This document shows, piece after piece, positions 12,561 to 61,382 of a stretch of 64,000 nucleotides of DNA. This stretch comes from Anaeramoeba flamelloides. Taxonomy: Eukaryota > Metamonada > Anaeramoebidae. The stretch is from assembly GCA_027625915.1 (NCBI GenBank), contig JANTQA010000047.1:434001-498000 (forward strand), in the 5' to 3' direction. The notes beneath the pieces were generated by a model. It did no database searches. It was not told where the DNA came from and saw only the letters and a program-made list of their open reading frames with translations. The position numbers and the translations under genes are program-made. The number at the start of each line of letters is the position of its first letter. Position 1 is the stretch's first letter.

Positions 12561-15500
12561 CTAATACACATGTAACATTTTTAAAATACCAACCAAAATT
12601 AGAACAAAGTAAAAAAGGAATATAAAATGAAGAAAAGTTTCTTCTTTTGATAAATATTTATACATTTTACTTTCCTTGATTAATAACATATAATACTTTA
12701 AATGTTTTAACGGGTGCCCTTTCGGGGTTGAATTATGTACGTTTAATTTTGTATCTAATTTTGAAAATTTATTATTTATTGGTATTTCGTATTCTTCCAT
12801 TTCTATAGTCTCCAAACTCTCTTCCCATTTATCCACTTCTTGTTGAAATAATCGATTTTGGTGTTGGATTTCCTGTTTAATTTTATTTGGAATTATTTTC
12901 CTATGATTAATTATAGATTTGTTCAGATCAGTTTTATCAAAATCAGAAGTTACATAAACTAAACAGTATGCATTAGCTGTGCTGTCCTTTTCACCAATTG
13001 AAATCCTCATCACTTCTTCCTCATCAATTATATTAACCTCACGATCATTAAACTTCCACCAATTCCCATTAAAAGAATCATAAACAAATGAAAAATAATG
13101 CCCTAATTTAGTATTAAAATATAATATAACATAACATATTAAAATTAGTAAGGTAATTATTAATAATTGAATTTTATCGTGGATTAATTTATTGATGAAA
13201 AATTTGGAATTTGTTATACCGTTTAAAATCTTTGATTTTATTTTCAAATTCTCATTTAATAATAAAAAAAAAAAGTGTTTTTTACAAGGTTTTCGTTATT
13301 TTTCTAAAAATCGATATTGATTATTTAAATTCACAGAAAATACTAGAAAGTATAATGATTGCGGAATATCAAATTCTTTATTACAATTTGTTTAAGGAAA
13401 TATATCATTGATAATCTTTTTATTGGGGTTTTTACACCCACATCTTAATACATGAAGAGTGTTGTTGTATATTTTTTTAATTTACTCATGTAACTGATTT
13501 GATTTTTCTTTTCTTTTATTATTTTAGTCGAATTTTTCTTCGTTTTTATTTTGATAAATTTTTCTTTAATTACACCCTTCTTGCTATAGTTAAATAAAAT
13601 TGAGAGATTTTATAACCAAAATCAAAATTCTGGAAAATATAACAACAGTTTTCGAGTTTTTAGTATTATTGAGAAAAAAGAATAAGTTTATCAACAAACA
13701 AAGAACTTGAAAAAACTTTCCCCACTTTTTTTTTTTTTTTTTTTTCCTTCAAAAAAATTGATGAAATATGTCTTTTGCTACAATTTCTGTATTTTTTATT
13801 TTTTTGAAATTTCCAGTAATCGTTACCAAAAATAATGTTGAATCTTATTTGAAAATGAAAAATTGAATGGGAATTATTGATCAAAAAATGAATAAAAAAA
13901 AAAAAATTCAAAGAAAATAAAGTGAAACAATTTTTACTTATTGGGATAAAACATAATTAAAAATCTATTAAATTTGAAATTGAATAAAGAGTTAATTGTT
14001 CAAAATTTGAATTTAACAAGGTTAAAAAAGTTTAGATAATCTGTTTTTTTTTGATCATAATAGATTTAATCCAAAATAGATTTGCTTTGAAAAACGAAAT
14101 GTATTGAAATACAACAATTTTACGAAACAAAAGAAGGTATTTATTTATTTTTTTAACATAATTTTTTCGAAAACTTACATTAACAATTTCAAATTCTAAG
14201 GGATAAAAAGGATATTTAGATTAGAGTGAGACTTGAAAAACAGTATTTAATTGCTTCTTTGATGTGAAAATTTTCTGCAAAAAATTAGATCTTTAATAGA
14301 CATCGGGGATTTGTTACTCATTTTCATTAATGGGATTTACCCTTTGAGATTATTTATTATCAAGTGAGTTTGAAAAATTATAAATATACGCTATAAAGTA
14401 AACCATGTATAACTTGAACGTTTGGTAGTGGTTATATTTTATCTTTTTTTTGATTAAAGAAAATAACTAAAAAGAGAGAAATTTAATTTCTAAACTCAGA
14501 TAAAGAATAGTTTAATTTCCATTTTTGATTTTAAAATTGTTTTGTTTTGGCGAAATATGTTCCTCTCGGTATAGAAAAAAGGAAGTTTCGTTTTTTCAGA
14601 AAAAAATTCAGAGGAAATAGAGGTTTTGATGATAACATATATTCTCATGATATTAACAATTAATTCACGATAATATTAAAAAAATCGATTAGTCCTACTT
14701 TATCACGAAAAATCATAAAATCGAGATATTTAACATTATTGCGATAAAATAATTATCGCGAAAAAATGAAAAATTATTTTTTTAAAATCACCTTAAAAAA
14801 AATCTCTTGATTTTGCAAAAGCCTTGAGACTTCCAAGAACACTTCCCCCCTTTAAAAATGTTAGAAAGTGTTTACAGGTGTTGTGAATTGTCTTCGAGTG
14901 TTTGAAAGTTTTGAAAGATATATAAAACTTTTATAAACTGAATGAGAGTTTGGTTGTTGTGGAAACAGAAAATTTATTTCGATTCATTTTTTTTTCTAAC
15001 CCAAATATAAAATCTCAAAAAAATTTTTTGATCAAACTAATAAAAACCCATTTTGACAAATTTAATTGAATATAAAATAGATGTGTTTTTTAAAAATGGG
15101 TTATTACCTTCACAAGTCAAATAACCAAAAGAGAAAGAGTAATTTTCCTTCTAATTGGTGATCGATTAAACAAAAACCCTTTAAGCTCTAGTTGAGTTTT
15201 CTGTCCAATACAAAGCTCTAGAGAAGAAGAAGAATAAGAAAAAGAAAACAATTGTGCAAAAAATCTAAATAATTGGTGATAATGTGGCATGGTTGTTGTG
15301 AAAGCTTTTGAAAAGTTATCCAACTCCTTTCGGCTTTCGGAGAATATTGAAAATGTTTTAACCCAAGCAACACATTCTTTAAAGAACAAGTGAAAGGTTG
15401 GTTCTTTTAGAAACCTCATTTACTCATCGCTATTTATAAGACTGCAATCGACTGTGAAAATATTTATTTGCCTTTTTTATTACGTTTGTTGATCTTAAAG

Positions 15501-18500
15501 GATCGATAGGTTTGTCAACCAAATAAAATGAAAACACAATAAAAACTCTTTGATTTGATCCTTGATTGAATCAAGTATCTTTTTTCTTGTTTTTTCAAAG
15601 AATAACTTTTTTTCACATAATCTGTTTTTTGATCAAAAAAATTTCATTGTAAAAATATTGCTGGATTAACATAAAACCCTCAACTTGTTATATCGTGATT
15701 ACTTTTTAATCGCGATATTTTGGCATTTATCACGATATTTTTACCTTTATCACGATATTTTTACCTTTATCACGATTTTATAATAATTATCGCGATTTTA
15801 TAGCATATCGTGATTTGTCATATTATTGCGATAATATTGAATCAGAGCGATTTTCTAAAATATCGCGATTTGAGAGAAATGATCGCGATTTTTGTAACTT
15901 TATCATGACTTAAGTATAGATATCATCAAAACCTCTAATTTGTTTTTTAACAAAAAAATAAAATTGTTTTCTTGATTTGTGTTGGAATTCACAATAAAAA
16001 CAAACAATTTCATAAAAACTGAGACAATTTTAATTTTAACAAATATTTTTATATTTTTTCATCTTTTCTGTTTTTTGTATTCATTTCATTTTTTCCAATT
16101 ACGTAACCCGTTTTTGTCGATAGAAAAATTTTCTCGAACAGTTTATATTAGGTTAAAGTTGAATTCTTCAAAACATAAGAAGTCAAATAAAATTAGTTGA
16201 TAGTATCTAACCATTTGATTGATCAATAATCCAAATAGAACTTTTACAAATTTACCAATGCATTTTTTTGACTCAACACGCAATTAGGAAAAAGGATCCC
16301 AAGACAAAATAAAACCTATGAACAAATTAATTTAAACCAGAAAATTTCAGGTCTCTCTAACAATTATTTTAAACCTCTTAATTTTTTTTCCACTCTTCAC
16401 TCTTTTCTTTCGATCATTTTTTCCCCAATTCTTCATTTTTTATTTCTTTTTTTTTTTTTTTTTTTTCCCAGAAAACTAAATTAAGATTCTAATACTTCGG
16501 ATGACTTTATCTGTTTAGATACTCTTTGAATTAGAATTCTCAAATTTATTCACTTCAAAATTCTCTCTTTAACAGATTAGATGAGGTTTCATCCAATCCT
16601 TAGCAATAAATTTACCAATTCATTTTTTTGGTTTTACTAGAATCCAAAATTTTTAACACAGACCGACGATTTATTAGTATTGATAATTATTTATTTTTTG
16701 TTTTGTGAGTATTATAATTTATCAACAATAATTAACATTTCAATTAGTAAATAGCTCTAATTTGGTAATTTCTTCTAGAATTGATTAAATAATATTTTTT
16801 TTGATTTTTTTCCATTTTATTCCCTGGCTGAATCTTCTTTATATTGGGGAAGAAGAGTTAAAAAGGAAAAATATCAAGTGGTTACTTACTAATATTGAAG
16901 ATACCGAAGCACAAAAGTCTGAGTGACTTGAAAATAAAAACTAAAAATCAAAGGCTAAAAATGACCATCTGTTTAAAGCAAATCAGATCAAAAAGAAAAA
17001 AGAAATTACAACAATTAAACAACGATTCTTAAATGAACAGTCATAATCAATTATCAAACCAAATTAAATTAACCAAAAGTATCGTGGCAGTGATTTTGGG
17101 TGTACTTAATTAACCATAGCATTGTTTTTACCAATTGCTTCTTATAAACCCTTTTTATATTACTTCTTTTTTTTTTTTTTTTTTTCTTTTCCTTTTTTAT
17201 TTTCAATTATTTGTTTTTTTGCTTTTTAAACATAAAAAATTTTGGGTATGTCTTTCCCTTGATCAATCGTGGAATCTATTATTTTAGACTTAAATTACCT
17301 TTGAGGAAATTTAAGTAAAAGGACATTTAGAGTGTAAAATACACTTCTTTAATAATAAAAAAAAAATTGGATTTTTTTTTTCAAAAATTGAATTTTGGTG
17401 TTTTAAAAATTTTGAATTGGAGTTTATGTTACAAATCAAAGAGAGAGGGGAAGAAAAAAAGTAAAATCTCATAATATATTTTTGCCAGGTATTAACAAAG
17501 AATAAAAAATCAACTTACCACTTCGAACATTTCCGCTATGCATTAATACTGAATGTATTGTGTATCCAACAGTTTTTTTTGTGACAAATATTTTGTTAAT
17601 TTTGTTTTGAATATCTACGATAGCATTATTTAAATTCTGAACTTGCTCGTTAATTTGTGTTTTATGCTGATTAATAATATTTTTTGCTCTATTTAAGTCA
17701 TTTCTTTTCTGGCCTTTAATTAAATTGATATAAACATTTTCATCGCCATCATCATCTTTATTTACTATCTTAAAAAGTTTCTCAACATGCTCTAATGATT
17801 GTATTAAAGATATCTTTGTTTTATTATAATTATTTAACTTATTTAATTCCTTTAATAATTCCTCTTTTTCAAATTTCAATTTTTTTAAAAGAATTCTCGA
17901 ATTTCTTCTTTTCTCAAGATTTTCATAAATATAACGATCCAAAAAGATTTGCTTTTCAAATTTGAAAGGTTGGTTATTTTTTTTACTCTGCAAAGTCTTT
18001 TTGTCAAACATCGCTCTTTGTAACTGGAAAATTAATACTTTTGGTAAATTTTCAAAACTTATTTCCTTTAAAATAGTAGTCTTATGCTTAGCATGGAGTT
18101 TATATTTAATACCCGTTTCCAGAGTATAAGAATCCAAACTTGAATATAGATCTCCATATTTGATATCTAAAATAATTCTTCCTAACTTTTCATAATTAAT
18201 ATATTCAAATTCTTTTTTTTGTTCACCGATTCCTGTGATGGATACGACTGATTCTCCATAAAACAAATCAGACATCCATGTTTTTTCCATAATTTCCTTT
18301 TCTGTCTTGATTTCTGTTTCTTTTTTAATCTCTTTTGATTGTTGTTGTTGCTTTTTTTCGTTTTCTGTTTCTCCTTCTTTTTCTATTTCTAGTTCTTTTA
18401 CTTTTTCTTTTTCTTTTACTTTTTCTTTTTCTTTTTCTTTTACTTTTTCTTTTTCTTTTTCTTTTTCTTTTTCTCTTTCTTTTTCCTTTTCTGTTTGTAT

Positions 18501-19451
18501 TGGTTGTTCTTTTAAATTCTTTAATTTTTTTAAACAAGCTATACCTCGTTCGATTTTTTCACAAAACTTATCATGGAATTCCAAGACATCATTTTGTTGG
18601 CCAAATTTAAAAAATTCATCGGTACCATTAGTATTAAACAACATTTTGATTGTCCTTTTTGGGCTAACAAATCTGAGATTTGAAGAGATCATAGATGAAA
18701 ATAACCTTTGGAGTTGACCAATCATTTTTAATTCGCGTAAATCAATTTTTTTTTCATTACTTTGTTTGGCATTCAAGTCCTCGACTTCTTCATTAATTGT
18801 AGTGAAGAGTAGAATTTTTTCTCGAAACTGTGGCAACATAAAATAACTTTGGATCATTGAATTCAAATAACAACTGTTACCAACATTTATGAGCCCGCAT
18901 GGGATTCCTTCAATGCGCTTTTTTTCAAATGGGCTATTTGGCCAAGGAATGTCCCACCAATTCTCAATTTCTTGTTGTGATTTATCAACAACATTATTAT
19001 TTTCATTTTCAAATGTTTTTGGGCCAGGCTTTGCATTGGTATTTTGATTTGTGTATGTGTTTGTATGTGTGCTTTGCGTATGATGGGAATTCGATAATTG
19101 CAGTAGATCCTCGAAAGTTTTGTGTGAGTATCGAGGGTTTTCGGACAAAAGCAGTTCAGTTTGATTTTCGCCATCTTCCAAATTCGAAAAAAATTGTTTC
19201 CTAACCGGTGTTTCCCCTGTAAAGTGATTACTCAATGAAAACTCAGGATCAATAAAATTTAAATTTGTACCTTGTTCTTTGTATTCCTTGAACGAAGTCG
19301 AGTGGTTTATTTTTGTTGTTGTTGTTGGATACAGAATTTCTTCAATTATCTCTGTGGCAGTGATTGGTTCATTCAGATTTCCAATAGCCTTTAAAACTTT
19401 GCTTCTTTCAAAACCCTTACCCACAACAGATTCTATTAATGATTGTGTCAT
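12561..19451 (-). CDS. USP25/28-like ubiquitin-specific protease (two exons, 4.4-kb intron, predicted C-terminal membrane anchor)
   Basis: Exon 1 is 19451-17519 and exon 2 is 13102-12561; together they give 824 residues. Residues 1-42 may be a UBA-like helix bundle. The Cys box GLINVGNSCYLNSMIQSYF places the catalytic Cys near 194. QQNDVLEFHDKFCEKIE, the LFYGE segment and LPKVLIFQLQRAMFD follow. The charged coiled-coil insertion starting IFLDRYIYENLEKRRNS is the hallmark of USP25/28. The intron donor (gtaagt, 17518-17513) and acceptor (ttag, ending 13103) join HSGNVRSG to HYFSFVYDSFNGNWWKFND, so the catalytic His (~646) and Asn/Asp (~663-664) come from exon 2. IPNKIKQEIQHQNRLFQQEVDKWEESL matches the helix after the USP25 catalytic domain. 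The long USP25/28 C-terminal region is missing; the frame ends in a hydrophobic stretch, residues ~801-820. A Lys-Glu run (18380-18500) lies between the Cys box and the fingers. Expected activity: cleavage of ubiquitin from substrates. Confidence 0.85.
14620..15935. mobile_element. TA-flanked inverted-repeat element with phased ATCRYGAT arrays
   Basis: The ends are 14-bp perfect inverted repeats, GAGGTTTTGATGAT (14620-14633) and ATCATCAAAACCTC (15922-15935). Each is flanked by TA (14618-14619 and 15936-15937), the target duplication of Tc1/mariner-type transposons. Inside both ends are arrays of near-palindromic ATCRYGAT motifs. In the left arm they start near 14644, 14664, 14682, 14702, 14720, 14737 and 14754. 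In the right arm they start near 15691, 15709, 15729, 15749, 15769, 15789, 15807, 15824, 15845, 15862, 15882 and 15901. No transposase is recognisable, so it is probably non-autonomous. The ends are seen directly; the superfamily is inferred from TA alone. Confidence 0.7.
15117..15419 (-). CDS. 100-codon ORF inside the inverted-repeat element, unknown product
   Basis: It starts with ATG (MRFLKEPTFHLFFKECVAWV) and is less A+T-biased than the surrounding intron. It sits on the strand of the host gene, inside the ATCRYGAT-armed element. I recognise no domain; an Arg/Lys-containing C-terminus (FNRSPIRRKITLS) is the only notable feature. It could be a remnant of a transposase, a captured host exon, or chance. 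Confidence 0.25.
   Translation of the reverse strand: MRFLKEPTFHLFFKECVAWVKTFSIFSESRKELDNFSKAFTTTMPHYHQLFRFFAQLFSFSYSSSSLELCIGQKTQLELKGFLFNRSPIRRKITLSLLVI
15990..17426 (+). mobile_element. Family A inverted-terminus element, interrupted copy A1
   Basis: Segments ~15990-16292, ~16617-16800 and ~17378-17426 align in order with the intact copy at 28639-29180. Shared landmarks are attacgtaac, a tatctaaccatttgat block, ttgttttgtgagtatt, and the terminus aaaattttgaattggagttta. Between them are a ~320-bp stretch that partly repeats the caaatttaccaatgcattttttt segment, and a complete family B element. The 5' end is lost next to the preceding TA-flanked element. Confidence 0.6.
16811..17365 (+). mobile_element. 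Family B element (copy B1), shares its 3' tail with the LINE
   Basis: It starts tccattttattccctggctg and ends ctttaataataaaaaaaaa. It aligns along its length with the reverse complement of 34357-34904 and of the split copy at 53075-53962. Its last ~95 bp, from gtggaatctatta to the A-rich end, align with the LINE tail at 11131-11226. It is inserted in the family A copy. Confidence 0.65.
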
Positions 19452-28638: not shown

Positions 28639-29180
28639 TAAACTAAAATTCAAAATTTTTCACACAGTTAAAACAGTCCAAATAATCACAATAATACAAT
28701 TTCATTCAAATTGGAAATAAATTTTGATTTTTTTGAAAAATATGAAAATCATTTTTTCATCTTTTAGTTTTTGTATTAATTTCATTTTTTGAATTACGTA
28801 ACTTGTTTCATTTGATCGAGATATTTTTTTCAACGATTGATGTTATGGTTAAGGTTGAGTTGTTCCAAATAAAAAGAACTCAAATAAAATTAGTTGATGG
28901 TATCTAACCATTTGATCGATCAATATTACTAATAGAATTTAAACAAATTTAGCAATGCATTTTTTTGTTTGGCTCTCTCCAAAATTTTTAACACACCCTT
29001 GATTTATTTGTATTGATAATTATTTGATTTTTGTTTTGTGAGTATTGTAATTTATAAAAAAGTGTTAACATTTCAATTAGCGAATGATTCTGATTTGATA
29101 TTTCTTTGAGAATTGATTAAATAAGTTTTTTTTTCTTCACAAATTGAATTTTGGTGTTAAAAATTTTGAATTGGTATTTA
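28639..29180 (+). mobile_element. Family A inverted-terminus element, copy A2
   Basis: It begins taaactaaaattcaaaattt and ends aaattttgaattggtattta, an imperfect ~21-bp inverted repeat. At 542 bp it has no coding frame. This is the cleanest copy for comparison. Confidence 0.7.
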
Positions 29181-31106: not shown

Positions 31107-31650
31107 TAAATCCCATTCCAAAAATTTGTATACACTCAAAATCAAAAAAAGTCAAAAAAAATCACAATTTTGTAAAATTTTTTCATAATTAAATATCGAA
31201 TCATATTAAAGTTACCCAATATTAATGTTTTTATTTGTAATACTTTTTAAATCAAGTTAATAAAGGAAAAATAATTACCAATAAAAATAAAAATCTATAT
31301 GTTCAAAATTTTGGCATGAGCTGAACAAAAAAATAAATTACTAAATTTGTTGAAATTGCACCAACAATTATTGATCCATTAAATGGTTAGATACCATCAA
31401 TTAATTGGTATGCGATTTTTCTATTTAACAAACTCAACTTTAGCCTTCTATCAACCATTGAACAAAAAATTCCAGATCTAAATGAAGCAGATTATGTAAC
31501 TAAAAAAAAGGAAATGAAAACAAAACAAAAAAGAAAAAAAATGAAATAGTTTGTAAAATCAAAATTATTCCCAAATTGAATGAAAAGTGTGAGTTTTGTT
31601 TTTCTTTCAATTGTTTTTAACTGTGTATAAAGTTTTGATATCTAAGTTTA
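31107..31650 (-). mobile_element. Family A element, copy A3 (reverse orientation)
   Basis: It starts taaatcccattccaaaaatt and ends agttttgatatctaagttta. The interior ggttagataccatcaatta is the complement of the block seen in A1, A2 and A6. Confidence 0.7.
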
Positions 31651-45201: not shown

Positions 45202-48200
45202 CTGGAGAAGCTCTCCTCGGTTTTTTTCAATTTTTTTTTGATATGTGTTTTTTTATTAAGCCATATACCCAGATATTTAATTTCTTTTCGTATTTTTGGT
45301 TTTCTATTCTGATTTATCGTCATTTACCTTAAGGTTATATTTGGTGATAATTTGATTTAGATTTGTTTGCGTAGAGTCTTGTATTTTCTGTAGTAATTCA
45401 CCTTCCATTATTAAAATTAAATCATCTGTATACATTTGAGTGTGTAAATATCGGAATGATCACATAAAAAAAATGTATTGTTCAATTAGTTGAAATTTCT
45501 ACCAACAATTATTGATCGATCAAAGGTTAGATACCATCAACTTACTTTATTTGAGTTTTTCATTTAAACAACTCAACTTTAACCAAATATCAATCATTCA
45601 AGAAAATTTTTCCAATCAAATGGAACAGGTTACATAATTGAAAAAATTAAATGAAAACAAAAAAAATGATAAAAATATTTTTATAATATCAAAAATATTT
45701 CCAAATTGAATGAAATTGCAATATTATTTTCCTTTTAAACTGTTTTAGCAGTGCCAAAAAAAAAAAATGAATTTTCGTTCAGTTACATTAACGAACTGCA
45801 ATTTCATTATTTCAGACTATTTTTTCATTCAGCATATATCATACCATATTGTTTCCTTTTTTCAGGCAGAAGCTAAATCCCATTCCAAAAATTTGGACAC
45901 TTCAAAAATCAGAAATAGGCAAAAAAAAACTCAATTTATTATATTTTTCCAAACGTAATATAAAACAGCATTTAAGTTACCCAGCATTAATGTTTTTATA
46001 AGGTAATCATTTTAATCCAAATAAAAGTAAACGAAAAAAAATAAAAATCATTGTGTCCAAAATAATGAAACGAACTGAACAAAAAAAATGTATTGGTAAA
46101 TTTGTTGAAATTTTAAAAACAATTGTTGATCGATAAAATTTTAAGATACCATCTACTAATTGTGTGTGATTTTTCTATTTAACAAGCTCAACACTAACCT
46201 TTTATCAACAATTGAAAAAAAATGACCAGATCTAACGAAACAGATTACTTAACTATAAAAAAGGAAATGAAAACAAAACAAAACAGACAAAAAATGAAAT
46301 AGTCTGCAAAATCAAAATTATTTCCAAATTGAATGTAAAGTGTATTATTGTTATTTTTTCAACTGTTTAGGCTGTGTCCAGATTTTTGGAATTTAGTTTA
46401 TATTAACCAAGTATAAATTTTCCTCTAATTTCAAAAAGTTGTTCTGAAAATGAGGTGTATTGATCTTAGGTGGTACCTTTAGGTCAATAATTGTTCTCTC
46501 ACTTAGGAACAAAATAACAACTTTCTTTTATCTTGTGGTGTTTACTGAATTTATTACATCATTATATCCTCCAAATCAAAGCAATAAGTATAGGCATTTA
46601 AAAGGGATTTTCTCTTGATAAAAATTAGAAATATTTATATGAAATAATCATTTGTGAAAAAAAGTGAAAAAGGAAAAAAATTTCAACTCAATTTTTAATT
46701 GGAAACTAAACATTTAATGAAAAAAAACAAATCTGATCAATGAAAAAACCAAAAATTTGAAATATTTTTGTTATTATGAGAATGAATTCTCACTAGTTTT
46801 TGTTTTTTTTTTTTTGATTTTGAATTTTCTTTTTTTAAAAGAAAAGAAGGAATTAGAATTCACAAAAAATATACACAAAGCATTTGAAAATATTTTATTT
46901 GGGGAATAATTTTTTGAAATGTTTTTATTCATAAAGTGTTTGAATTGAAATTATACTTCATATATATCCTTTTTTTTAATCTTCTCACAAAACACTTTTT
47001 AGAAAAATTTATTTTAACAATTTGAAATTTTATTTTACAAATTTGAAATTTTATTTTAAAACTCTGAAATTTGATTACATTGTTATAATACAATAAGTTG
47101 TCATATATTCCATGTATTTTTTCTTCTGCAAACACAATAAATTTCATAATAATTAATATTTTACTATTTCTTATTTTAATTTTTTGTTCTTTCATGGATT
47201 TTAAAAAAATATATCTATAAATAATAAAACATCAAAATTCTTTAAAAATAAAATAATTTGAAGGCTTATTAATTTTATAAATTTTCAAAATAATAATAAT
47301 AAATTTCAACATAAACTAAAATTCAAAATTTTCCACACAGTTAAAACAGTTCAAAGAATCATAATAATACAATTTCATTCAAAATTGGAAATAATTTTAA
47401 TTTTTATAAAAATATGAAAATCATTTTTTCATCTTTTAGTTTTTTTGTTTTACATTTCATTTTTTGAATTACGTAACTTGTTTTGTTAGATCGAGATTTT
47501 TTTTTCAACAATTAATTTTAGGTTAAAGTTGAGTTGTTCAAAATAGAAGAACTCAAATAAAATTAGTTGGGAGTATCTAACCATTTTATCAATCCATAAT
47601 ACTAATAAAACTTAAACAAATTTAACAATGAATTTTTTTATTTGGATCCCTCTTAAATTTTTAACACACCGATAATTAATGTGTATTAATAATTATTTAT
47701 TTTTTTGTTTTGTGAGTATTGTAATTTATAAACAATTGTTAAACATTCCAATTAGTGAATCGTTTTAATTGGGTATTTCTTCGATAATTTATAAAATAAG
47801 ATTTTTTTTTTTCAAAAATTGAATTTTGCTATGTTAAAATTTTTGAATTGGAGTTTATAATACATTATTTCTATTAATTGCATTGAACTCGTTATCAAAC
47901 AGCTTTTAATTATGGCAATTTGAAAATGAAAAAATAAATTGTTTTTTCAAAATAAAATTAAAAATAAACTCTTTTTCAAAAAAAAGTTCACAGAAAATTT
48001 CAAGAATTATTCATAATTGAAATAAATTAATTGTAGTCTCATTCTAAAATCTAAGAAACTCTTTAAAAAATATAAAAAAACACTCAACTAAATATTTAAA
48101 ACTCATTAAAACAAAACAATCAAAATTAAAATTAAATATTTGAAAAATTGATGTGCACTTTTATTTGAAATGAGAAATCTCGTTTTGTAAATTGTAAAGA

Positions 48201-60110: not shown

Positions 60111-61382
60111 ATGTTAGCTTATTTTTCAACAACCAAACAAACTTTGCCGGTTCAAAAAGCACCGGTTACACTTTTGAGAAGCTTTTCAACCAATAGCAAA
60201 ACAAGAATAATCAATCCAAGGACTAACGAAAGAGAAAGTGCGAGCACAAATTTCGATCTTGGAGTTGAAAAAAAGACAGGACAAAAGAGCCCGATCCCCG
60301 AGGGGAGAAAACCAAAAGCCGAACCAAAAAAAACGGCCAAAAGAGCGCCTACATTCCAACCCATCTGCTTGTCACCGTCCACCGAGCTTTTGCTTGAGGG
60401 GATCAAAAATGGGAATAGGCGAATGCTGAGCAAGGCGATCACGCTTGTCGAGTCCGAGTTGGAACGAGATCAAAAGCAGGCAACAAGCCTGCTGACGAGA
60501 ATTATCGAGGAAAGAAGAGAAAAGGCGCAAATTGATCCAAACTCCATCAACACCTTTCGTGTTGGCATCACGGGGCCACCGGGCACTGGCAAGTCCACCT
60601 TCGTGGAGACACTTGGGACCAATCTGTGTAACCAGGGGAATAAGGTTGCCGTTATTGCGATCGATCCCTCCTCCCGCAAGACCGGCGGATCAATTTTGGG
60701 TGATCGCTCAAGGATGATCAAGCTGGGGATGCACGAGAATTCCTTTATCAGACCCTCGCCCTCTCGCGGAATAGCCGGTGGCCTCAGTGTACACACTTCT
60801 GATCAGATCCTGCTCTGCGAGCACGCGGGCTATAACGTCATTATTGTGGAAACCGTCGGCGTTGGGCAAACCGAGGTTTCCGTTGCAGACGTGACAGACA
60901 TGTTTATGCTGCTACTCTCGCCCGGCGGAGGCGACGTGATCCAGGGCATCAAGAAGGGTGTCGTTGAATACGCAGACATGATCGTCGTCAATAAGTGCGA
61001 CGGGGACCTCGTGCAGCGAGGTAAAATGATCCAATACGAATACAAAAACGCCATACAACTTTTGGGACACCAAATGGGCGACTGGATACCACCAGTGCTA
61101 ACAGCTAGCTCCCTAATGGGGATCGGTATCCAAGACGTTTGGAAAAAGGCCCTAGAATTCAAACAACACTCGAAAGAAAATGGCCTTTTCGAAACCAAAA
61201 GAGCTCTCAAAAGAAAGAATGAGTTTTGGAAAAAATTATACGAATTCTTGAAAATGGGCTTGCATAACTCTGAAGAAGTTATGAACTCAATCCAAAAATT
61301 ACAATCACTCGTAGAACGAGGCGTAATATCTTCACGACAAGCTTCTTCCGATATTGTTGGCCAAATTTTTCAATATATGTAA
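60111..61382 (+). CDS. MMAA/MeaB-type GTPase, methylmalonyl-CoA mutase chaperone, probably organellar
   Basis: This 423-residue intronless frame matches MMAA/MeaB/ArgK G3E GTPases. It has the P-loop GITGPPGTGKST (~152-163), DPSSRKTGGSILGDRSRM (~185), RPSPSRG, ETVGVGQTEVSVAD (~246) and NKCDGD (~293-298, the NKxD base-recognition motif), then the C-terminal dimerisation helices. The family loads and protects adenosylcobalamin-dependent methylmalonyl-CoA mutase, a step in propionate metabolism. The first ~30 residues (MLAYFSTTKQTLPVQKAPVT and so on) are basic, Ser/Thr-rich and lack acidic residues, like a mitochondrial or hydrogenosomal presequence. The central ~700 bp have about 50-55% G+C in lines I counted (30/60 and 33/60), against a very A+T-rich background. 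The gene ends are less G+C-rich. Confidence 0.93.
   Translation: MLAYFSTTKQTLPVQKAPVTLLRSFSTNSKTRIINPRTNERESASTNFDLGVEKKTGQKSPIPEGRKPKAEPKKTAKRAPTFQPICLSPSTELLLEGIKNGNRRMLSKAITLVESELERDQKQATSLLTRIIEERREKAQIDPNSINTFRVGITGPPGTGKSTFVETLGTNLCNQGNKVAVIAIDPSSRKTGGSILGDRSRMIKLGMHENSFIRPSPSRGIAGGLSVHTSDQILLCEHAGYNVIIVETVGVGQTEVSVADVTDMFMLLLSPGGGDVIQGIKKGVVEYADMIVVNKCDGDLVQRGKMIQYEYKNAIQLLGHQMGDWIPPVLTASSLMGIGIQDVWKKALEFKQHSKENGLFETKRALKRKNEFWKKLYEFLKMGLHNSEEVMNSIQKLQSLVERGVISSRQASSDIVGQIFQYM

Follow-up and report, generated by a model that had tools for sequence, protein, structure and literature searches.

The window analysed here is a stretch of 64,000 nucleotides from Anaeramoeba flamelloides (contig JANTQA010000047.1, positions 434,001 to 498,000; C48 among our contigs), within an AT-rich eukaryotic genome of 254 Mb in 76 contigs; AT richness has been described for Anaeramoeba genomes (PMC11550330). 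A gene for a ubiquitin-specific protease lies on the minus strand at 12561–19451, with its UCH profile match split over two minus-strand open reading frames (ORFs), profile positions 1–217 falling in 17469–19451 and positions 210–254 in 12561–13247. The 1318-bp element at 14619–15936 therefore sits in an intron of ~4.2 kb, whose limits are approximate. This agrees with an earlier interpretation made from the letters alone (the sequence-only reading), which had placed it in a deubiquitinase intron, and the window copy proves to be one of many dispersed copies. We consider it probably a miniature inverted-repeat transposable element (MITE) of the Pangu type, whose arms carry mirrored ladders of the 8-bp palindrome ATCGCGAT.

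From left to right, the element has a terminal inverted repeat (TIR), AGAGGTTTTGATGAT, on the plus strand at 14619–14633, a left array of seven ATCGCGAT-like units spaced ~17–20 bp apart (14644–14762, plus strand), a non-coding interior common to other copies (14763–15691), a right array of 12 units (15692–15909, plus strand), where the consensus has ten in mirror placement to the left arm, and the second TIR on the minus strand at 15922–15936. The termini are AGAGG, and the 3-bp sequence AAT stands outside each end, at 14616–14618 and 15937–15939. The 14-bp perfect inverted repeat bounded by TA, described in the sequence-only reading, is present as the pair GAGGTTTTGATGAT at 14620–14633 (plus strand) and 15922–15935 (minus strand). 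Another dispersed repeat of ~200–290 bp occupies six places in the window (16029–16231, 28640–28925, 31363–31626, 45504–45738, 46118–46377 and 47313–47600). One of these lies just outside the element, and another element copy (L002) is inserted in a relative of that repeat.

Copies of the element across the genome

A genome search with the element returned 2645 candidates, of which 40 were scored, the window itself included. Each of the other 39 covers at least 1116 of 1320 bases at 78–83% identity to the window copy and is full or nearly full length. The 16-base end TAGAGGTTTTGATGAT occurs exactly 973 times genome-wide, compared with nine times for a reversed-letter control. Taken with the mean majority fraction of 0.963 at the end positions of the alignment described next, this suggests, very roughly, ~900 two-ended copies.

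The alignment holds 62 distinct full-length copies of 1234–1339 bp, kept from 78 loci (L001–L078) after dropping repeats of the same copy, loci in which either end was missing or lay more than 80 bp from its predicted position, and copies shorter than 1100 or longer than 1500 bp. Mean divergence from the consensus is 8.4%, with the window copy matching at 1126 of 1263 aligned bases, and the copies are old and are decaying, apparently neutrally. Counted from the T of the flanking TA, the two consensus ends agree over their first 21 bases. The longest stop-free run in the consensus is 71 codons, and the family is therefore read as non-coding. Three loci read for a longer coding version (L040, L041 and L043) look like nested or interrupted copies, and no convergent pair of ends 1.5–8 kb apart was seen by eye among 100 listed of the 973 exact ends. 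Being non-coding, uniform in length and high in copy number, with a TIR and a target duplication, the family has the marks of a MITE, and the element is longer than the usual MITE. Other genomic copies and paralogous empty sites (below) were both found, in agreement with the earlier suggestion of a transposable element.

Palindrome ladders in the two arms

Chains of ATCGCGAT-like 8-mers (up to three mismatches, 15–23 bp apart) reproduce the earlier count of seven left and 12 right units in the window copy, while letter-shuffled arms of the 62 copies give chains of 0–4. Counting 8-mer palindromes at up to two mismatches did not separate the arms from shuffles in such AT-rich DNA, and this count was replaced by a score allowing one mismatch. 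With at most one mismatch the window copy has 14 motif matches against a mean of 0.35 and a largest value of 3 in 300 dinucleotide shuffles. The strict form ATCRYGAT, earlier described in both arms, is found nine times in the window element and only in its right arm, the left arm holding decayed variants. The consensus is cleaner, with 12 exact copies of ATCGCGAT and 15 with at most one mismatch, compared with 0.01 and 0.36 in dinucleotide shuffles. Its array score is 61.9 (maximum 15.8 in 60 shuffles), with 15 matches where 0.09 are expected on the one-mismatch score.

Spacing in the 62 copies is mostly 17–20 bp, with peaks at 18 bp (322 of 851 intervals) and 20 bp (369 of 851), and the consensus has a mean pitch of 18.8 bp. 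This corrects the spacing reported earlier (17–21 bp, about two helical turns), the consensus mean being 18.8 rather than 21 bp. Left consensus units start at positions 27, 47, 67, 87, 105, 123 and 140, with their centres 30.5, 50.5, 70.5, 90.5, 108.5, 126.5 and 143.5 bp from the left end. The right-arm centres are nearly the mirror image, at 31.5, 51.5, 71.5, 89.5, 107.5, 125.5, 143.5, 163.5, 183.5 and 200.5 bp from the right end. Phase coherence is 0.91 (left) and 0.95 (right) at 18.75 bp, compared with 0.41 and 0.17 at 10.5 bp. With this low coherence and the 18.8-bp pitch, the sites would not lie on one face of the helix, as the sequence-only reading had proposed for bound dimers; such regular sites would instead spiral around B-DNA.

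The right arm has ten units in the consensus and in 35 of the 62 copies, 11 in six, and 12 in four, including the window copy; L010 appears to share the longer right arm. The two extra units in the window copy are probably a local duplication. The three identical units 20 bp apart that had been singled out earlier are present there (15729–15776, plus strand), in an arm two units above the modal copy, and are not a feature of the modal copy itself.

Between the motifs, the two arms have little in common. Facing spacers compared without gaps agree at 0.40 of positions, compared with 0.415 when shuffled (1374 of 2000 shuffles do as well), and non-facing spacers at 0.50. A gapped alignment of the arms brings 48 of 74 non-motif positions into agreement, along with 52 of 54 motif positions, the motifs helping to set the register. 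From the first motif inward the gapped figure is 40 of 64, compared with a shuffled-spacer mean of 0.60 (313 of 1000 shuffles as good). Since shuffled spacers do as well, high gapped agreement is not evidence of homology between the arms. Beyond the terminal ~20 bp, then, the two arms share motif and pitch but not spacers, and so do not form one long inverted repeat. Mirrored placement with unrelated spacers suggests that selection favoured an array of sites in the founding element.

No such selection is visible after insertion. Across the 62 copies, transitions at CpG occur at 0.113 and 0.124, about twice the rates of 0.059 and 0.063 at other C or G positions, and the CGCG positions of the motif are kept at 0.843, compared with 0.863–0.864 for other G or C positions. 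The outer A and T positions of the motif are kept slightly better (0.966) than other A or T positions (0.935 and 0.933), a small difference that alignment anchoring, or selection while the family amplified, may explain. Of 975 scored units 340 are still ATCGCGAT, and the variants ATCACGAT and ATCGTGAT fit its decay after insertion. The earlier suggestion that selection retains CG at motif centres thus finds no support in inserted copies; selection before insertion, in the founding element, is supported by the mirrored placement with unrelated spacers. Decay through CpG methylation is a possible reading of the raised CpG transitions, although the C5 DNA methyltransferase profile PF00145 has no match in the genome.

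Target site duplication and coding relatives

The sequence-only reading took the element to be flanked by TA, implying a TA duplication. The bases further out show otherwise. In 56 of the 62 copies the same base stands immediately outside both TAs, compared with 30 predicted by column composition. One position further out, 61 copies have A on the left and all 62 have T on the right. An ANT duplication is exact in 52 copies (31 ATT, 20 AAT and 1 ACT). A longer, 5-bp TANTA duplication was rejected, with a match in just 17 copies.

Several copies are inserted inside other repeats, providing paralogous empty sites among the loci read and the window. We joined the flanks with a single ANT and counted the net indel at the junction, for which a TA duplication predicts +3. 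One insertion, L028 (16 matches), was left out of the total; its flanks match arms of other family copies. Of the remaining 56 matches, which come from 18 insertions, 28 show a net indel of 0 and none shows +3; the other values lie between −7 and +6. In the 29 matches with at least 70% junction identity (11 insertions), the net indel is 0 in 19, +1 in five, +2 in three, +4 in one and −4 in one. The clearest empty site is that of L024, where six of seven paralogs have a net indel of 0. A contrast is given by a short family of ~197 bp with ends CAGTCAGTTTCACTTTTAAG, in which all 8 end pairs are flanked by TA at either side and the outer base matches in 1 of 8. The target duplication of the element is ANT, and its inverted repeat starts AGAGG.

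The short MITE with CAGTCAGTTTCACTTTTAAG ends measures 175–202 bp, with seven of eight copies within 193–202 bp. The copies are at L084:886–1079 and 1322–1519, L085:1061–1262 and 2463–2659, L086:325–499 and 918–1114, L004:3466–3661 and L041:2586–2778. Neither of the L086 copies occurs in L081, the related transposase copy.

The genome has 26 matches to the transposase profile DDE_Tnp_4 (PF13359), and ten of these loci (L079–L088) were read in stretches of 3–5 kb. An autonomous partner, sought through the PF13359 and L079 transposase searches, was not found in the loci read. Two coding families, L079/L080/L082 and L081/L086, combine DDE_Tnp_4 transposases with AGAG ends and ANT duplications. 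The first is ~1.45 kb long with ends AGAGATATTC[CG]GTAAT and AGAGATTTTACGTAAT, and is flanked by AAT on both sides in L079 and by ATT on both sides in L082. In the second, L081 measures 1823 bp between its AGAG ends and is flanked by ATT left and right, and L086 has ACT on its right side, its left end falling outside the stretch read.

Both families have ladders of their own, each assessed in one copy. The L079 family has a TTCCGAAA-like array, with ten matches (0.37 expected), 6 of 8 steps of 14–15 bp, and a score of 23.3, compared with a maximum of 13.9 in 60 shuffles and with 9.0 in the interior. The L081 family has a ATTTTCAC-like array, with 11 matches (0.98 expected), 5 of 9 steps of 18–19 bp, and a score of 16.6 (maximum 12.0 in 60 shuffles; interior 8.7). 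A match to the helix-turn-helix profile HTH_Tnp_4 ahead of the DDE domain in L086 is weak (E 0.0034, below the curated cut-off), and the profile has no match in L079.

Further DDE_Tnp_4 families are represented by L083 and L085, with HTH_Tnp_4 matches just above or above the cut-off; the ends of these families were not found. Tc1/mariner-type elements are common in the genome, where DDE_3 (PF13358) matches at least 150 times, many of these matches being free of internal stops. Elsewhere in the window, an uninterrupted ORF of 423 codons for a MeaB-type GTPase (60111–61382) lies in a 2-kb stretch of 37% GC, the other 2-kb stretches having 19–28%; it is a possible lateral transfer.

Proposed mechanism, alternatives and known systems

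We give a probability of roughly 0.77 to the explanation that the element is a Pangu-type MITE of the PHIS superfamily, moved by cut-and-paste, with ladders to which the transposition machinery binds subterminally. On this model a DDE transposase acting in trans would cut at the AGAGG ends and insert the element into A-N-T targets, duplicating 3 bp. The mirror-image ATCGCGAT ladders would be bound by a DNA-binding part, either a helix-turn-helix within the transposase itself or a partner protein, and an array of dimers loaded on each arm would let the two ends pair. From the ends, the target and the coding relatives, we infer that a Pangu-like transposase moved the family with ATCGCGAT ladders. 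Among the functions proposed earlier for the arrays, a platform for transposition machinery is thus plausible, while we saw no evidence for a silencing platform or a regulatory array in the intron.

Several observations weigh against this explanation. The element's own ends, allowing two mismatches, were not found beside a transposase gene in the ten DDE_Tnp_4 loci read, nor did these loci yield the full-length copy with a transposase that the sequence-only reading had proposed to look for. The ladders of both coding families are weaker than the ATCGCGAT ladder, and the two flanks of L080 differ, one being AAT and the other AAA. In half of the empty-site matches (28 of 56) the net indel departs from 0, being negative in 10 and positive in 18. 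An initial scoring by global alignment was mixed, 35 matches favouring ANT and 32 TA, with L028 giving 1 and 15 of these; since its two joined queries were of unequal length, it was replaced by net-indel counting. Finally, sequence does not distinguish a 3-bp ANT duplication from one of 1 bp within an invariant A_T target.

Among the alternatives, the strongest is that the arrays bind a host factor, such as a silencer, replication or transcription protein, on which the element hitch-hikes. The regular ladders, a perfect 8-bp palindrome with two CpGs, and the fact that no transposase belonging to the ATCGCGAT-ladder family was found in the DDE_Tnp_4 loci read are all compatible with such a factor. 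Two coding families with like ends have ladders that differ in motif, a pattern easier to reconcile with family-specific proteins than with one host factor, and the lack of a C5 DNA methyltransferase profile match in the genome weakens silencing based on methylation. We therefore regard a host factor as unlikely. It is more improbable still that the ladders are satellite-like tandem amplifications with no binding function: the two right-arm units above the modal copy and the three identical units at 20 bp show that the array can expand, but tandem amplification copies spacer and motif together, whereas here motif and spacing are retained and facing spacers differ. Very improbable, too, is a TA-duplicating MITE of the Tc1/mariner type, even with TA kept on both sides in 54 of the 62 copies and at least 150 DDE_3 matches in the genome, since matching outer bases in an A_T context in 56 copies are unexpected for a TA duplication, the TA-flanked CAGTCAGTTTCACTTTTAAG family matches there in 1 of 8, and no empty-site match of 56 has the predicted +3.

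Returning to the Pangu-type MITE with binding ladders, a broader and more tentative possibility, on which we would not bet at even odds, is that Pangu-type families in this lineage share an end design of mirrored ladders, each family with its own motif and a fixed pitch (14–15, 18–19 or 18–20 bp), the conserved unit being the pitch and not the spacer. The transpososome might then be a protein filament or an array of stacked dimers, with motif specificity and step length co-evolving with each transposase. The results add to the Pangu-type MITEs a high-copy family whose ends are of unusual design, and three families in one genome with like ends and target but different motifs and pitches make a natural series for the co-evolution of transposases and subterminal sites. 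They also give a caution, that in AT-rich DNA a longer duplication can be masked by TA beside a TIR.

Tc1/mariner membership was set aside on the outer-base match, the empty sites and the CAGTCAGTTTCACTTTTAAG contrast family. En/Spm (CACTA) elements have the termini CACTA/CACTG, and the AGAGG termini here, together with the DDE_Tnp_4 transposases of the coding relatives in the same genome, place the element outside that group. The Pangu group of the PHIS superfamily is marked by an ANT target duplication and a TIR of 11–40 bp that usually starts with AG or GG (PMC4482050). The element has an ANT duplication and an AG-starting TIR, its consensus ends agree over ~20 bp, and its coding relatives encode a DDE transposase, as Pangu elements do (PMC4482050). 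On these ends and this duplication we file it as a putative non-autonomous Pangu-type element. It differs in being non-coding, 1.27 kb long and equipped with mirrored palindrome arrays, of which the section on Pangu in PMC4482050 makes no mention. Among the papers listed by searches of the open-licence PMC literature, none describes such arrays in Pangu, judging by titles and opening lines of abstracts. The coding families here are also shorter, at ~1.45 and 1.8 kb, than the mean of ~3.5 kb (PMC4482050). Bacterial IS5 shares the ANT duplication (PMC4482050); the element described here is eukaryotic and non-coding, and has subterminal arrays. PIF/Harbinger elements and Tourist MITEs (mPing, Harbinger3) form the sister group within PHIS. 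PIF/Harbinger targets are TWA (PMC4482050), in contrast to the ANT found here as ATT, AAT and ACT, which argues against PIF/Harbinger proper.

For the ladders, two systems appear to work alike. In En/Spm, the element protein TNPA binds repeated subterminal motifs, which differ between families (PMC2613891). Harbinger relies for end binding on a separate protein, the Myb-like ORF1, and non-coding copies are moved in trans (PMC2836001). By analogy with TNPA and the Harbinger ORF1 protein, the ATCGCGAT arrays most likely bind transposition machinery.

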